From Chlorobiaceae bacterium (GTDB lineage Bacteria; Bacteroidota; Ignavibacteria; UBA10030; SZUA-254), in NCBI GenBank assembly GCA_013824245.1, contig PNNN01000072.1, positions 1 to 48,382 of the forward strand: a stretch of DNA of 48,382 bases. Direction: 5' to 3'. Below the pieces are notes generated by a model. That model saw nothing but the letters and a program-made list of their open reading frames with translations. It was not told where the DNA came from and ran no database searches. This document shows positions 9,202-14,516 of this stretch, piece after piece. The stretch's first letter is position 1. The number at the start of each line of letters is the position of its first letter. Made by a program: the position numbers and the translations under genes.

Positions 9202-9289
9202 GTTTCAACTGAGATGTACCTAAGCCTGGCTTATATAATTGACGTGGGATCGTTTTACTTATAGATGAAAGAACAAATAAGACAGTTCA

Positions 9290-9562
9290 TCAATCTTGTG
9301 GAAGACGTTTCTTGAGCCATTCTTGTACATGCTCAAGCCCTTGACCTGCAAATGGATAAGTGAGCGTTACAATAAACAAGTGAGCATTTTCGCTGAGAAA
9401 TGGCATTATCTTGTGGAAAATCGTTGTTGTCTTTTCATCCGTTTCGATCGCGTATGAACTTTCAGAAAGTTGAACATGGTTGTAATTTTTAACAAACTGC
9501 GGTACGGGCTCAGCCAACGGACTCATTTTGCTGTGATCGTAAGTTATTAACAGTATATTCAT
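9290..9562 (-). CDS. SinR/Cas2-like small protein, last gene of a small-protein operon
   Basis: A 90-residue protein starting MNILLITYDHSK. The pattern is a first strand ending YD, a helix, then VQLSESSYAIET, a helix, and HLFIVTLTYPFAGQG before a C-terminal WL helix. This is the ferredoxin-like pattern of Cas2/SinR-family proteins, which are often annotated as SinR family and have no firmly known role outside CRISPR. The frame is open further upstream to 9670, but that part overlaps a separate 50-codon gene, and the ATG at 9562 has a GGAG Shine-Dalgarno sequence 6 nt away, so this start is preferred. There is no CRISPR array or cas1 nearby. It is likely co-transcribed with three upstream small genes. 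Confidence 0.65.
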   Translation of the reverse strand: MNILLITYDHSKMSPLAEPVPQFVKNYNHVQLSESSYAIETDEKTTTIFHKIMPFLSENAHLFIVTLTYPFAGQGLEHVQEWLKKRLPQD

Positions 9563-9578
9563 TGTTATCTCCGATTTC

Positions 9579-9731
9579 TTATTCTTTCTTCTGATATTTC
9601 CCCGGCAAATCCTGGGGAGTCTGTTCCATTGGTCGAAGTCCCAGCACCCATTTGTCAAAACCTCTTTCAACCTCTTCGATTGGAGGGGAGCTTCCCCTCG
9701 GGTGTTTTGCTTGATAATTATTATTCTGCAT
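9579..9731 (-). CDS. Small hypothetical protein (50 aa) in small-protein operon
   Basis: Fifty codons from ATG at 9731 to TAA at 9579, too short for usual gene calling. The start overlaps the end of the 74-residue gene upstream by 11 bp, and the stop is 16 bp before the SinR/Cas2-like gene, which strongly suggests a compact operon. The product is hydrophilic, with a Pro/Gly-rich N-terminus (HPRGSSPPIEEVERGFDKW) and a charged C-terminus; it has no membrane segment or known motif. The reading is supported mainly by gene packing. Confidence 0.5.
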   Translation of the reverse strand: MQNNNYQAKHPRGSSPPIEEVERGFDKWVLGLRPMEQTPQDLPGKYQKKE

Positions 9732-9945
9732 GGCGAATTATTTCCTTTCCGTAATCTTCACACTTAATTTGATTTGCAAATGCCAGCGCTTGTTGCTCAT
9801 CATTGAACCAATCTGTTGAGATTAGTTTTTTGAACCACATTAACTTTGTCCAGCGCTTAACAATCCAAGAGCTTGGATCAGAGTGACTGTGAGTAAGCGT
9901 AATGAAACAACTTTTAACATTTGATATTACAGTTGTGTTTCTCAT
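9721..9945 (-). CDS. Small hypothetical protein (74 aa) in small-protein operon
   Basis: Seventy-four residues with no recognised domain. The middle part is rich in Trp, Phe and Lys (WIVKRWTKLMWFKKLI) and is followed by an acidic/Ala helix (DEQQALAFANQIK), so it could contact nucleic acid, membrane or a partner. Its ATG overlaps the stop codon of the upstream 59-residue gene in an ATGA arrangement (9942-9945), the usual sign of translational coupling. It is the second gene of the four-gene unit. Confidence 0.55.
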   Translation of the reverse strand: MRNTTVISNVKSCFITLTHSHSDPSSWIVKRWTKLMWFKKLISTDWFNDEQQALAFANQIKCEDYGKEIIRHAE

Positions 9946-10121
9946 TGCTTAGATCCTTTCTCTGCGGTTTCCAGAATTTCCATGAAAAATCTTCTTCGTA
10001 TTGCAACATATAGAGCATTCCATCTTTGCAATGCGTTTTTGTCTTCACTAATTTGTTCGATAGCAGACGTTTTGAATTCTCTAAGTGAGTTGTGATCTTT
10101 TGTGTCTATTTTTTTTGTCAT
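9942..10121 (-). CDS. Small hypothetical protein (59 aa), first gene of small-protein operon
   Basis: Fifty-nine codons from ATG at 10121. The product is charged and helical (DKNALQRWNALYVAIRRRFFMEILETAEK) and ends one base short of the next start through an ATGA overlap. It has no Shine-Dalgarno sequence and no recognised family. Coding is supported by the coupling to the 74-residue gene and by the protein-like composition with an amphipathic helix. It may be a regulator or antitoxin-like partner, but nothing shows this directly. Confidence 0.5.
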   Translation of the reverse strand: MTKKIDTKDHNSLREFKTSAIEQISEDKNALQRWNALYVAIRRRFFMEILETAEKGSKQ

Positions 10122-10604
10122 AAATTATTTTTCAGTTAAATGAAATGGCAATTGAACATGCCGTAGATTAGAAAAGCAGCTTGAATGTAATCGAGGTAGG
10201 CTTACAACGAATACTGTTTAGTATAACAACCACTGCGAGCCTATTAGAGCCATCGCCCTTGTGATAATGGCGAGTACAGTAGCTAATAGTTACTATATCA
10301 ATATCGGCATACTTAATGCCAATAACGAGACATATATTTTATTTATTATTAGCATTAAAGCGTTATTCTGATATTGTGGCACGGGTACGATAAACACCAT
10401 ACAGGCATTCACTTAGATGATAACTCATCTAATTTTGGAGGAATGGATTAACCGGCACAGAAAACAGAGAAGTTAGAGAACTATTTCAATCGTAAGTAAA
10501 GAAGGTTTACCTTTTGCTTTTATTCAATAAAAAATGTTTATTATACGCGAAGAAGAAAACCAACCAAATTATATTAATAATATAGTCAGTTCGGAGTATT
10601 TAAT
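10122..10604. other. Intergenic region between divergent small-protein operon and TPR-MBL gene
   Basis: A 483-bp gap without a convincing gene. It must hold the divergent promoters of the small-protein operon and the TPR-MBL gene. One short hairpin is clear: GGCAT (10306-10310)/ATGCC (10316-10320), the same stem as in the leader at 5918-5932. A 34-codon frame starting with the ATG at 10267-10269 was considered but lacks support. No tRNA or known RNA was recognised. Confidence 0.5.
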
Positions 10605-12746
10605 ATGACTGAACAGCAAAAAAAAGCACGACAAGAAATTATTAAGCGATATCTGGATGATTATAAATACATCCACAAAAAAGAAGAAACGATTACCTTC
10701 TTGCAAAAAGAAATTGAAGAAGCACACAAGTATAATCTCGATGATCTTATATATTTTTTCGATGGGAGATTGGATGCTCTTGAAGAAAGATATGAACTTG
10801 CGATTCAGAAATATCAGCAAGCGTTAAAGATCAATGAAAAATTCTCCTATCCCTGGAACGGACTTGGGAATGTTTATTATAACCAGAAGGATTACGAGAA
10901 GGCAAAAGAGGCATACGTCAAGGTGATTGCTCTTGACGAAAAATACGCATCTCCCTGGAACGGACTTGGGAATGTTTATTATGATCAGGAGGATTACGAG
11001 AAAGCAAAAGAGGCATACGTCAAGGCGATTGCTCTTGACGAAAAATACAAAGATCCTTGGAACAACCTTGGGAATGTTTATGTAAAGCAGAAAGATTACG
11101 AGAAGGCAAAGGAGGCATACCTCAAGGCAATTGCACTTGACGAAAAATTCGCATATACCTGGAACGGACTTGGGTATGTTTATTATGTGCAGAAGGATTA
11201 CGAGAAGGCAAAAGAGGCATACCAAAAGGCGATTGCTCTTGACGAAAAATTCGCACATCCATATAGAAATTACGGTCTTCTTTTAGTTGATATGAACGAT
11301 CTCGAAGAGGCTCGTATCTATTTCGGAAAGGCAATAGAAGCTTATAAATCTGAGGGTGAAAATTACTGGCTATCTTTAACGGAAAAAAATCTTGAGGCAG
11401 TCAAAGAGAAACTCAATGCCGAAAAAGTTGTTAAGAGAGTTAGAGATTCTATAAAGGTTGAGGATCCAATAGCAATTTTGTTGTCTGAAACCGAGCGTTT
11501 CGAAAAGGAGATTTTTGAAAAGCAAAAGAAATTCCAGTTCTTTGTTGAAAAAGAAAAAGATGGAGAAAATGAACTACAATATTTGAAAGTGCTTCGTCGG
11601 TGGAATTCTTACACTCCTATCGTTGCTGATAATTACCACATAAGTAAAGGCGGCGGATATTTTTTGAAAATAAAGGGATATGGTGTGGTGATAGATCCCG
11701 GATTTAACTTTATAGACAATTTCAAGGGAGCCGGTCATTGTTTTGATGAGATTGATGTTGTCATCGTATCTCATGCTCATAATGATCATACATCGGACAT
11801 TGAATCTATACTCACACTGCTCAATAACTGCAACAAAAGGCGCAAAGGGCTAGTGGATTTTGTTAGCGAAAATACCGTGCGTGCCGATATTGCTAAAGGT
11901 CGTGGAGTTGGTATTAACAATATAACTGAAGAGGAAATTGAGAAAGCTTTTATGATATCCACTCGTCGTAAAACCATCGATCTCTATATTTCAAAGAGCG
12001 TGGATAAGAAATTCGCCGGAATGCTTAATCTTTATTCGAAAGATGATTACAAGTATCATGTCATAGAAAAGGATGACGAGAAATCACTCCTTGATGGACT
12101 TTTAAAGATAAAAGTTATTGGCGCAAAACACGATGATATTATTTCGGATCAAGATTCAGTTGGCGTATTGTTCTATTTTGATGATACTGTACTTGTGTAT
12201 ACAGGAGACACAGGGTGGAGTAATGAGATCGAGAAACAATATATAAACATTCACAAAGATATCAAGAGCAAACATATCGTTCTTCTTGCTCATATAGGCG
12301 GTCTCAAGGAGTATGAGAGTAAATATCTAATCCCAGAAAAACGCAACGAAGCTTTTTATAAGAATCACCTTGGGAGAATTGGACTTGGAAAGTTAATATC
12401 AGTTTTAAAACCAAAAATATGTTTAATATCGGAATTCGGGGAAGAGTTGAGAGGACATCGGCAGGAACTTGCAGAAATCTATAACAGTGTTTTTAAAAAT
12501 ACTACGCTTTTTCTTCCAGCGGATATTGGACTTGAATACCATCTTCACGATAATAAGATCCGCGCTATCACAGAACTTGATGTTGATAAATATGAGTATA
12601 AGACTGCACTTTTTGAAGCTGATAGGGTAAAGACGTCTCTTTTAAGAAAGGATTATTCGCTTCATTACTACGATGCGAAAGCTTCATTCAAAGAAGGCGA
12701 CCTCATACAGGTGCTCATAGAACAGTTTGATAGGAGTACTAGATAG
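10605..12746 (+). CDS. TPR protein fused to metallo-beta-lactamase-fold hydrolase
   Basis: A 713-residue, apparently cytoplasmic protein (no signal peptide). Residues about 50-250 are tetratricopeptide repeats, four of them almost identical 34-residue units (PWNGLGNVYY..KDYEKAKEAY). A coiled linker (about 255-330) leads to a metallo-beta-lactamase domain (about 343-600) with HxHxDH at 390-395, a later TGDTG aspartate and an LAHIGG histidine, so the metal site appears intact. A C-terminal region of about 100 residues has no recognised motif. GGAG 8 nt upstream supports the ATG. TPRs usually mediate protein contacts, so the hydrolase may be guided to a partner. It is flanked by accessory modules, which hints at a conflict or stress role, but this is inference. 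Confidence 0.85.
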   Translation: MTEQQKKARQEIIKRYLDDYKYIHKKEETITFLQKEIEEAHKYNLDDLIYFFDGRLDALEERYELAIQKYQQALKINEKFSYPWNGLGNVYYNQKDYEKAKEAYVKVIALDEKYASPWNGLGNVYYDQEDYEKAKEAYVKAIALDEKYKDPWNNLGNVYVKQKDYEKAKEAYLKAIALDEKFAYTWNGLGYVYYVQKDYEKAKEAYQKAIALDEKFAHPYRNYGLLLVDMNDLEEARIYFGKAIEAYKSEGENYWLSLTEKNLEAVKEKLNAEKVVKRVRDSIKVEDPIAILLSETERFEKEIFEKQKKFQFFVEKEKDGENELQYLKVLRRWNSYTPIVADNYHISKGGGYFLKIKGYGVVIDPGFNFIDNFKGAGHCFDEIDVVIVSHAHNDHTSDIESILTLLNNCNKRRKGLVDFVSENTVRADIAKGRGVGINNITEEEIEKAFMISTRRKTIDLYISKSVDKKFAGMLNLYSKDDYKYHVIEKDDEKSLLDGLLKIKVIGAKHDDIISDQDSVGVLFYFDDTVLVYTGDTGWSNEIEKQYINIHKDIKSKHIVLLAHIGGLKEYESKYLIPEKRNEAFYKNHLGRIGLGKLISVLKPKICLISEFGEELRGHRQELAEIYNSVFKNTTLFLPADIGLEYHLHDNKIRAITELDVDKYEYKTALFEADRVKTSLLRKDYSLHYYDAKASFKEGDLIQVLIEQFDRSTR
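10851..11258 (+). repeat. Tandem 102-bp repeats encoding TPR units
   Basis: Four in-phase 102-bp units begin at about 10851, 10953, 11055 and 11157 and share long identical stretches (for example GATTACGAGAAGGCAAAAG). The high DNA identity points to recent duplication within the TPR-MBL gene and to possible copy-number change by recombination. Confidence 0.9.
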
Positions 12747-12779
12747 AAGTTAAGTAAAAGTGAGACAATCCTTAAATAT

Positions 12780-12809
12780 TTATGAACCTCCAATCCGAAA
12801 TCCTCAAAG
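12780..12809 (+). repeat. Left copy of 30-bp direct repeat flanking the AbiE module
   Basis: TTATGAACCTCCAATCCGAA and the next ten bases repeat, with one mismatch (T12794 versus A14501), the sequence at 14487-14516, which contains the start codon and first nine codons of the HEAT-like gene. Here the reading frame stops after 16 codons, so this is a vestigial gene start. The toxin stop codon (12804-12806 on the minus strand) lies within it. Confidence 0.85.
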
Positions 12810-13739
12810 CTGTTTCCATTTCCAATCTATAGCTTCCCAACTAGAGTCCTTAAGATTTGGATCATTGCTGCATACCGATTCAAGAAATAGCTCAAGCTTA
12901 TTCATCGCCTCAGAAAAACTTTCGTTAACGGTCAACCGATTTCTACTTAGAAATGCTATCCATTGTTTTTGTTTATCGGAATCCAATTTAAAATCAATTC
13001 CAAATATTACTTTTCGATCTTCAAGAGGTGTACCTCTGTGTTGAAAAGTGGCAATAATGGCTTCACGAATATTATCGAATAAGAATGTTTCATTCTGAGC
13101 TTGAAACAGGATATCATAAATATCTTTCATCCGGCTCGAGACAAAACTAAGCTTCACAAGCGCTTCGAACTTCTCGGCTATAGAAGATTCAATAGAGTAA
13201 ACGTTAATCTTAGGTACAGGCATTTCCTCAAGGAGAACGGGAAAATCTGTTTGGTGCGGTCCAGCTATAATTTTGTCACCAAAAGCAACATCCATCCAGA
13301 GTACTTCTTTCATCCCGCCTAAAGATGCCTCAACACGCACCCGAATACCATTATAATCTGCGTTCTCTGCAATTTCGTCGACAGTAATATTTTTATGATC
13401 GAATATCACACAGTCTTTGCAATCAATTGTAACAATCTCCTGTATTATTTTTTTGATATTGTCAGGAGCATTGGAAAGACCTTGTCCCAAAAAATCAATA
13501 TCTCTTGTCGGTCGGAGGCGGGACATCCGCTGAGTTAGAAGTAGTAGTGCACCTTTGAGTATGAATCCTGTTTGATATTGGGAAATAGATAATCGGTAAA
13601 GGAATCGTTCTTGAAAATATTGTAAAAGAACTGCGTTGAAATCACGGTTGGTTTGCTTTGCGATATTAAGAAGCCGGGCTTTGACGGAAGCGGTTAGGTC
13701 TTTAATTTGCTTGCTTCGGTTTGTCGGTTCACTCTTCAT
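12804..13739 (-). CDS. abiEii: AbiEii-type nucleotidyltransferase toxin
   Basis: A 311-residue toxin of the AbiEii/DUF1814 nucleotidyltransferase family (type IV toxin-antitoxin and abortive infection systems); related toxins transfer nucleotides to tRNA or other targets and halt growth. The family motifs are present: LKG at 61-63, TRDID at 78-82 (catalytic aspartates D80 and D82) and EKFEALVK...SSRMKDIYDI at 189-210. The frame is open to 13790, but the ATG at 13739 overlaps the antitoxin stop in a TAATG arrangement and is clearly the coupled start. The gene ends inside a 30-bp direct repeat. It looks intact. Confidence 0.93.
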   Translation of the reverse strand: MKSEPTNRSKQIKDLTASVKARLLNIAKQTNRDFNAVLLQYFQERFLYRLSISQYQTGFILKGALLLLTQRMSRLRPTRDIDFLGQGLSNAPDNIKKIIQEIVTIDCKDCVIFDHKNITVDEIAENADYNGIRVRVEASLGGMKEVLWMDVAFGDKIIAGPHQTDFPVLLEEMPVPKINVYSIESSIAEKFEALVKLSFVSSRMKDIYDILFQAQNETFLFDNIREAIIATFQHRGTPLEDRKVIFGIDFKLDSDKQKQWIAFLSRNRLTVNESFSEAMNKLELFLESVCSNDPNLKDSSWEAIDWKWKQL

Positions 13740-14332
13740 TATCCAACAATTGCTTTCACATAAGGCATCATTACAGTTTTCACCTGACAAACCTCCGCAT
13801 ACTTACTGAGCTTATTGATGTTCGCTTCTTTTAGTTTGAGATAACTTTTAAGTCCTTCAAGTGCAATGTCAATGCCAAGTTTATTTCTGTAGCGGAACAT
13901 ATCGCAAACTGTTTTTTCTTTATTGTAGACTCTAATAGTACCACTCTTGATCTGTATCTTCTCAATCCCAGGTGAATAGAAGGCATTTGGGAAATAAAAT
14001 ACACGGATTGGTGGATATTTAATTTTAAACCGGTCAGTATTATGCGGTACTGCCACCGTTACCTCTGATGGATTGAATGTTGTCAGATTATAATATCGTA
14101 GTGCTGAGGAGAGGCAGATGACTGTCGCTTTATTCGCATGACAGATATCTATCAGACTGCTGTTTTCATTCCATGGATAATCGATAAGCTTGTAAAGACC
14201 GGGCTTTATTTTTTCGATCAGATTGTTAGAAACTGCTTTCGCAATATCTCTAGTATGGATTTTAGCTACTTTCATATCCTGCATTCTGCCATAGCCACCA
14301 TGTTTCTTGAAAAACCTAACTATTTGGTCCAT
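13739..14332 (-). CDS. abiEi: AbiEi-type antitoxin with winged-helix domain
   Basis: A 197-residue antitoxin of the AbiEi family, which binds its own promoter through an N-terminal winged helix and neutralises AbiEii. The N-terminus (MDQIVRFFKKHGGYGRMQDM) matches the winged-helix start, and the core shows the family pattern HANKATVICLSSALRYYNL, PIRVFYFP and NKEKTVCDMFRYRNKLG. The frame extends to 14374, but AAGGAT just upstream of ATG 14332 and a perfect inverted repeat at 14359-14385 make the internal start better. It is translationally coupled to the toxin and divergent from the HEAT-like gene. Confidence 0.9.
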   Translation of the reverse strand: MDQIVRFFKKHGGYGRMQDMKVAKIHTRDIAKAVSNNLIEKIKPGLYKLIDYPWNENSSLIDICHANKATVICLSSALRYYNLTTFNPSEVTVAVPHNTDRFKIKYPPIRVFYFPNAFYSPGIEKIQIKSGTIRVYNKEKTVCDMFRYRNKLGIDIALEGLKSYLKLKEANINKLSKYAEVCQVKTVMMPYVKAIVG

Positions 14333-14358
14333 TTTATCCTTAATATGCGGTTCATATT

Positions 14359-14385
14359 CAAGGCAGATAAACATTATCTGCCTTG
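14359..14385 (-). promoter_or_regulatory. Probable AbiEi operator (perfect 12-bp inverted repeat)
   Basis: CAAGGCAGATAA (14359-14370) and TTATCTGCCTTG (14374-14385) are exact complements with a 3-nt spacer, 27 bp upstream of the antitoxin start. AbiEi antitoxins are known to repress their own promoters by binding inverted repeats, so this is the likely autoregulatory site. A TTGGTT-like -35 lies just beyond it on the minus strand. Confidence 0.7.
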
Positions 14386-14486
14386 TTTTAGAACCAATAT
14401 AATATTATTTCCCCAAAAATCAAATACGACTTCAATCTTACAGAACAGATTTGAATATTCTCCAAAATCTTGTTAATTTTCTTCAC

Positions 14487-14516
14487 TTATGAACCTCCAA
14501 ACCGAAATCCTCAAAG
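14487..14516 (+). repeat. Right copy of 30-bp direct repeat at start of HEAT-like gene
   Basis: This contains TTATG and the first codons of the intact HEAT-like gene; it is 29/30 identical to 12780-12809. Together the copies bracket the AbiE module exactly. Confidence 0.85.

Follow-up and report, generated by a model that had tools for sequence, protein, structure and literature searches.

Cis-regulatory leaders of multi-operon regulons, whether riboswitches or protein-binding leaders, combine a conserved 5' element with a shared pool of downstream genes. The locus described here, from a genome of the Ignavibacteria, shows the same feature: a conserved 5' element, putatively transcribed, stands ahead of several operons of one gene pool, among them an operon of four very small genes. 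It differs from known leaders of this kind in that it has no Rfam match and no covariation support. Single members of the pool touch on other described families. P90, the last gene of the operon, gives a match to phrog_1090, whose members are phage proteins, and is here chromosomal, behind the leader and in company with P59, P74 and P50. A ~95-aa pool protein found behind some leaders weakly matches the beta-flower proteins (PF21784 and PF21785), of which the operon itself has none; in the accessible part of PMC10584680, which gave the beta-flower fold its name, the role of that fold is not established.

Comparison between genomes places a conserved element of ~160 nt in front of operons whose small genes come from one common pool. 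Our main reading, to which we give a probability of roughly 0.55, is that the operon belongs to a set of small-protein operons in one order of Ignavibacteria, a set that is lineage-specific and probably co-regulated. What had looked like an isolated cluster of tiny ORFs would thereby become a testable regulon, in which P59, P74, P50 and IVGLN, an unnamed small pool protein, recur behind one leader. Among the literature titles found, none describes the leader element or these small-protein families; the print record may hold more.

Four small genes in an accessory island

The window, by which we mean the whole stretch of DNA that was analysed, is 48,382 nucleotides long and contains the following features.

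P59: 10121-9942, minus strand, 59 codons
P74: 9945-9721, minus strand, 74 codons; ATGA (4-nt) overlap with P59
P50: 9731-9579, minus strand, 50 codons; 11-nt overlap with P74
P90: 9562-9290, minus strand, 90 codons; 16-nt gap after P50
Accessory island: 9236-14443, strand not applicable; operon, TPR/metallo-beta-lactamase gene and AbiE; absent from G001
AbiEii and AbiEi: 12804..14374, minus strand; neighbours outside the operon, recognised by PF08843 (E 4.2e-38) and PADLOC

An earlier sequence-only reading had described four small minus-strand genes with these overlaps and this gap, and all coordinates and lengths were reproduced. The frame of the 90-aa protein is open further upstream to a TTG, which would extend it to 126 aa; the equivalent ORF in genome G006 begins at the equivalent ATG and has a length of 90 aa. 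G006 carries all four genes in identical order, with identities of 54, 79, 88 and 81% for P59, P74, P50 and P90, respectively. Between the two genomes, dN over dS (Nei-Gojobori) is 0.313/1.076 for P59, 0.101/0.367 for P74, 0.075/0.768 for P50 and 0.13/0.625 for P90, giving ratios of 0.29, 0.28, 0.10 and 0.21 from a single pair and without a significance test. All four genes lie at a low 0.10-0.29. Because the order is the same in G006 and the ratios fall in this range, the comparison establishes the four ORFs of the window as real and correctly placed genes. At least two of them are shorter than the usual gene-calling limits, as might be expected of ORFs that arose by chance in intergenic DNA; such an origin is strongly disfavoured, and in our view extremely improbable, because their order is kept in G006, their dN/dS ratios are low and relatives occur across the order.

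The operon had also been called unrecognised, and it is so: searches of Pfam, NCBIfam and PADLOC returned no family above chance for P59, P74, P50 or P90. Even at E<=10, PADLOC, a search that reaches described systems only, gave 0 families for each of the four proteins.

Its placement in an accessory island next to AbiE was likewise borne out. In G001, a genome of the same genus, the flanks align and the positions matching 9235 and 14444 are ~30 bp apart, forming an empty site; P90, P74 and the leader are all without a match in that genome. The PF08843 match lies within 12807-13790, and PADLOC recognises AbiEi (E 6.6e-62; 13742-14374) and AbiEii (E 7.9e-87), with Pfam AbiEi_4 just under its cut-off over 13742-14374. 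In G006, AbiL and AbiEi adjoin the four-gene set. In the window and G006 loci alike, one flank holds AbiEi (60% identity) together with what is, by eye, a similar gene of 170-177 aa, and the opposite flank holds a metallo-beta-lactamase gene, again by eye. The two four-gene loci are apparently orthologous, and for that reason their Abi neighbourhoods count once. Adjacency to AbiE is local to the window locus, and a location next to defence genes can mislead.

Two repeat structures were seen in and beside the island. The AbiE pair is flanked by the two copies of a 30-bp direct repeat (12780-12809 and 14487-14516; 97% identity), and since the right-hand copy forms the beginning of the gene for 177 aa at 14489, AbiE may have arrived with a duplication of that start. 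The TPR/metallo-beta-lactamase gene (10605-12746) contains 102-nt tandem repeats at 10734-11345, and Pfam detects TPR units there.

A conserved leader and a shared gene pool

Conservation does not end with the first codon of P59. Between the window and G006, ~350 nt of upstream DNA (10468-10123) are 76.6% identical by blastn, and the ~160-nt core of this region is conserved also with loci that carry other downstream genes. The element had been absent from the sequence-only account. Its two parts are as follows.

Leader: 10174..10331, minus strand; noncoding, ~160 nt, in front of the operon; aligned in 12 loci
Further upstream noncoding DNA: 10332..10468, minus strand; conserved with G006 at 0.68-0.82 identity per 40 columns

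From 5' to 3' the leader consists of a promoter-like start, a segment ACTCGCC...GGGCGA and a segment TAGGCT...AGCCTA, and its conserved blocks 1 and 2 are 52-54 nt apart in 12 of 12 sequences. Rfam gave 0 matches to the window at the gathering threshold and only three to positions 9900-10620, all with E>=2. From the 12 aligned loci we built a covariance model, R1, with 162 positions and 11 pairs, which is mainly a sequence profile since so few pairs are spread over that length. R1 detected 24 leader copies in 18 of the 98 genomes of the order, with 1-3 copies per genome and a single copy in the window's own. In a class-wide sample, searched with the stricter filters that apply above 40 genomes, the leader was present in 12 of 294 genomes, every one of this order and every copy already known.

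Half of the 24 copies formed the model-building set. These 12 are not counted as evidence because they were used for R1 and had been picked beside P74 or P90. It is the remainder that carries the argument: 10 of the 12 non-model copies precede pool families defined beforehand. Five of them (L050, L054, L055, L056 and L062) lie at places already known from the P90 or P74 searches; at the seven wholly new places, pool families follow in five (L052, L057, L058, L060 and L063). The genes behind non-model leaders comprise P74 (L062, L055, L056), a short P74 paralog (L050, L063), P50 (L052, L062, L063), IVGLN (L055, L063), P59 (L054, L056), P90 (L054), a beta-flower-like gene (L057, L058) and a VOC fragment (L060). 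The leader of L061 precedes a family of ~80 aa that is found behind the L052 leader too (HVPRRQWVSSEDIYAIVE; L052:1994-2218 and L061:1704-1928), with a weak Mrr_N match, and behind the leader of L053 no pool family follows. Two genomes, G011 and G058, have three copies apiece, each ahead of a different gene set. Where a locus has pool genes, the leader precedes them in the same orientation. Leader copies before a shared pool of small genes form the pattern of a regulon, and the regulon reading has good support from comparison between genomes.

Whether the four genes travel together, a check proposed by the earlier reading, received a divided answer. Smaller combinations are widespread; the complete set was seen in the window genome and G006 only, among the genomes examined, and there at what is apparently one orthologous locus. 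In the order, 44 genomes out of 98 contain relatives of P74 (E<=0.01; the window's own is one of the 44), and some of these relatives are divergent and have different neighbours. With the P74 alignment as query, 10 genomes of a phylum sample of 345 match, all of the same class, and the 15 P74-search loci that bear names, all from MAGs, are labelled Ignavibacteria, Ignavibacteriae, Ignavibacteriales, Bacteroidetes or Bacteroidota. Near P74 we counted, over 22 clear loci, P50 in 17, the leader in 12, P59 in 7, IVGLN in 6, VOC/glyoxalase in 5, beta-flower-like genes in 5 and P90 in 2. These loci comprise 16 from the 98-genome search of the order, 4 from a further search and 2 from the phylum sample, and the count takes genes on the same strand within 2.5 kb, at E<=0.01 for P59, P50 and the leader and at 1e-4 for the remaining pool genes. 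The weaker P74 matches of the 98-genome search were excluded, as was L078, where P74 alone was seen (its inclusion would give P50 17/23, leader 12/23 and P59 7/23), and counts for 'P74p' were set aside as mostly P74 matching itself. No leader was detected at 10 of the 22 loci, one of which (L020) ends near the expected leader position. P90, for its part, occurs at 9 places in 8 of 60 genomes, its own included, and the leader precedes it at five of the nine (window, L002, L003, L005 and L009). Because P90 accompanies P74 in only 2 of the 22 loci, the set of four, as judged from these genomes, is not a recurring unit.

Several features of the wider pool are recorded here as seen. At L018 and L023, the DNA in the P59 position just upstream of P74 is partly homologous to L012 and read in another frame, the product being a different 79-80-aa protein; this is a frame change or overprinting. 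Head-to-head with the divergent P74 relatives of L030, L033 and L038 is a gene that by eye resembles ArfB-type ribosome rescue, and a search for the leader at these three loci detected none.

The proteins of the operon

P90 is the only one of the four with a clear database family. It matches phrog_1090, a family whose function is not known, at E 2.6e-8 (residues 1-86 on profile positions 1-87 of 90), and the same family is matched by 9 of 9 aligned members, P90 and 8 relatives. We take P90 and phrog_1090 to be SinR-like from a resemblance judged by eye; proteins at L154 and L156 look SinR-like in the same way. A phage or plasmid home was considered and set aside: tblastn of P90 against 50,697 phage records (E<=0.01) gave no match, P74 had none among plasmids, and the viral contigs held no confirmed relative of P74 or P90.

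The 'Cas2/SinR pattern' attributed to P90 stood in one part. Its LLITYD start does resemble that of Cas2, and hhalign aligns 60 columns from there, but no match to PF09827 (Cas2) was listed among the 9 aligned members of the P90 family at E<=10 or found in the window's genome. Membership of Cas2 is not supported because the hhalign probability between 11 P90-like proteins and 13 Cas2 sequences from the order is 4.5% (E 0.009 for this single comparison). No CRISPR-like repeat was found in the window between 9100 and 14700. The predicted structure of P90 (pLDDT 47.4, from 2 sequences) is too poor for fold comparison, and a PDB sequence search yielded no match better than E 0.28. A Cas2-like fold is possible and stays putative.

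P59, P74, P50 and IVGLN are all without a Pfam match. In one genome, a single ORF (L073:3878-4201) encodes P59 fused to P74, and because of this natural fusion we propose that the two would act together. A structure predicted for the fusion (pLDDT 77.7, 14 rows) shows P59 as one helix and P74 as four strands and a helix; the underlying alignment consists of P74 rows only, without relatives of P59. With the P74 part of the model, VIA-align placed 6d7k_D at the top (Z 8.2 over 58 residues, rmsd 2.0), followed by PARP1/2 chains (Z 6.5-7.1) and a Borrelia Pur-alpha (4.5), Z values that may reflect merely a common arrangement, the fold matches of P74 lying below the level of homology. The chain 6d7k_D is the methane monooxygenase inhibitory subunit (MmoD), and the matched PARP1/2 chains are the DNA-binding WGR domain. 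The small domains of MmoD, PARP1/2 WGR and PUR-alpha have their strand-helix arrangement in common with the P74 model; P74 differs from them in lacking any PDB sequence match, and its best Foldseek hit, a PURA chain, reaches E 0.049, with none at E<=0.001. WGR is absent from the Pfam matches of P74 (E<=10) and of 15 relatives (E<=1). It is tempting to regard P74 as a tiny domain that possibly binds nucleic acid; this role is only a guess because the Z values may mean no more than a shared arrangement.

P50 would be a disordered partner, and P90 a SinR-like accessory protein added in the window version of the operon. P50 carries the RGSSP motif but not the WQDDGGE tail present in some of its longer relatives. 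A conserved C-terminal tail WQD[DN]GGE was seen in the P50 relatives of L002 (oriented ~1279), L012, L013, L022, L023 and L024; in G006 this stretch persists past the P50 stop codon, and in the window copy it was not found.

Proposed mode of regulation and possible function

The 5' start of the leader resembles a promoter, with TTG, about 20 nt and TAnnTT. The first ~40 nt would then hold the promoter, and the rest of the element would be transcribed as a 5' leader, with one signal acting through it to control these operons. In hand-counted leaders, 14-15 bases separate the promoter-like halves. A search of 15 genomes for the promoter-like pattern with 16-19 bases between the halves gave 12 matches against 27 in the reversed control; no known leader is among the 12, those at L107 and L114 seem to lie within coding sequence, and because the spacing differs from that of the leaders the search is uninformative about a wider regulon. 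An RNA structure of the leader was not supported, neither stability nor covariation exceeding that of shuffles. Single-sequence folds of nine leaders gave z of -0.97 to 1.82, indicating no extra stability; RNAalifold returned 11 pairs, of which three are altered on both sides, and its covariation term is 0.05. A named two-helix structure has one pair changed on both sides, as many as 142 of 500 shuffles reach, and its cells are paired at 89.8% versus 89.4% when shuffled and 24-45% when slid.

Several accounts of the element have to be weighed against each other. That its conservation reflects a DNA regulatory region, a promoter with activator sites, in place of a regulatory RNA is a real possibility, if short of even odds: the ordinary stability and the covariation no higher than shuffles point that way, as does a NarL-type regulator near several loci, whereas conservation runs ~100 nt past the likely promoter with the 52-54-nt block spacing kept in all 12 sequences, and the regulator is missing from 4 of the family's 9 genomes with a leader. 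These odds overlap with those of the main reading because only the mechanism changes and the regulon stays. A bolder proposal would make the leader a new class of cis-regulatory RNA, so far seen only in this order, which senses stress through a ligand or an RNA-binding P74 and switches on modular small proteins, with P59-P74-P50 as the core effector complex; we offer it tentatively and consider it rather unlikely. The leader might instead be a cassette-like site of recombination or insertion with the small genes as interchangeable cargo behind it, as the varying gene sets and the accessory island of the window copy would allow. We rate this as very unlikely, given that one family pool keeps recurring (10 of 12 non-model copies), that leader-bearing genomes have only 1-3 copies, and that pool genes, where present, lie downstream of the leader in the same orientation.

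The sequence-only reading had left the choice between a conflict and a regulatory module. The regulatory half is favoured by the conserved leader; the conflict half is weak, its Abi genes being placed at one apparent orthologous locus, and 'regulatory module' fits the evidence better. A toxin-antitoxin or abortive-infection module with P90 as a Cas2/VapD-like nuclease would suit small, overlapping genes in an accessory island beside AbiE, a G006 copy adjoining AbiL and AbiEi, and the phage origin of the phrog_1090 proteins. It is nevertheless unlikely: none of the four has a PADLOC match, the window and G006 loci seem orthologous (partly by eye) and so make one case, and other neighbours are often found beside P74 and P50. 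Within the best 25 of 82 PADLOC families among the flanking proteins, the clear abortive-infection genes that could be placed were AbiE in the window and AbiL with AbiEi in G006; Csa3, CARF/RtcR-like, PD-T4-6 and mad6 appeared as well, with no locus assigned, so defence genes may lie near other loci too.

Returning to the co-regulated set of operons as the main reading, we suggest that the whole would serve stress or envelope adaptation, because its parts often neighbour a NarL-type regulator and GH130/GT-like genes. A NarL-type response regulator, GT-like, GH130 or SPFH-like gene is present around 9 of 19 leader or P74 loci, or 7 of 17 once two loci fetched because of the regulator are dropped, a count that comes without a background frequency and covers stretches of ~10 to 20 kb (48 kb for the window) with queries from three of the 19 loci. 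Around 10 of the 19, the window included, no such gene was found. At L066, L068 and L072, GT and GH130 genes adjoin P74. A scan of the flanks of 18 loci took in 131 ORFs, of which 15 were dropped by eye (pool genes and likely antisense ORFs); among the 116 flanking proteins scanned, response-regulator domains were the commonest family with 10 members, again without a background count. The NarL-type protein was tried as a dedicated regulator and rejected, since at E<=1e-30 it is not found in G005, G006, G007 and G009, four of the nine genomes in the family that bear the leader. Stress survival rather than phage defence may be what these operons provide. Should the leader prove to be an RNA switch, or be acted on by a single regulator, its signal would suggest a function for all the families together, some beta-flower-like proteins included.

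The names used for neighbours differ in their basis. Response regulator, VOC, BRCT (weak), Mrr_N (weak) and beta-flower are backed by family search, the last below threshold (34.5 bits against a curated cut-off of 38 in one family and 22.7 against 25 in the other), and GH130 is backed by a match to PF04041. KdpC/KdpA, SPFH, glycosyltransferase (GT), ArfB-like, YyaL-like and branched-chain aminotransferase are names that we presume by eye. At L006 and L007, P90-like genes stand upstream of what by eye are apparent kdpC and kdpA genes, a neighbourhood that gives a hint of osmotic or potassium stress.
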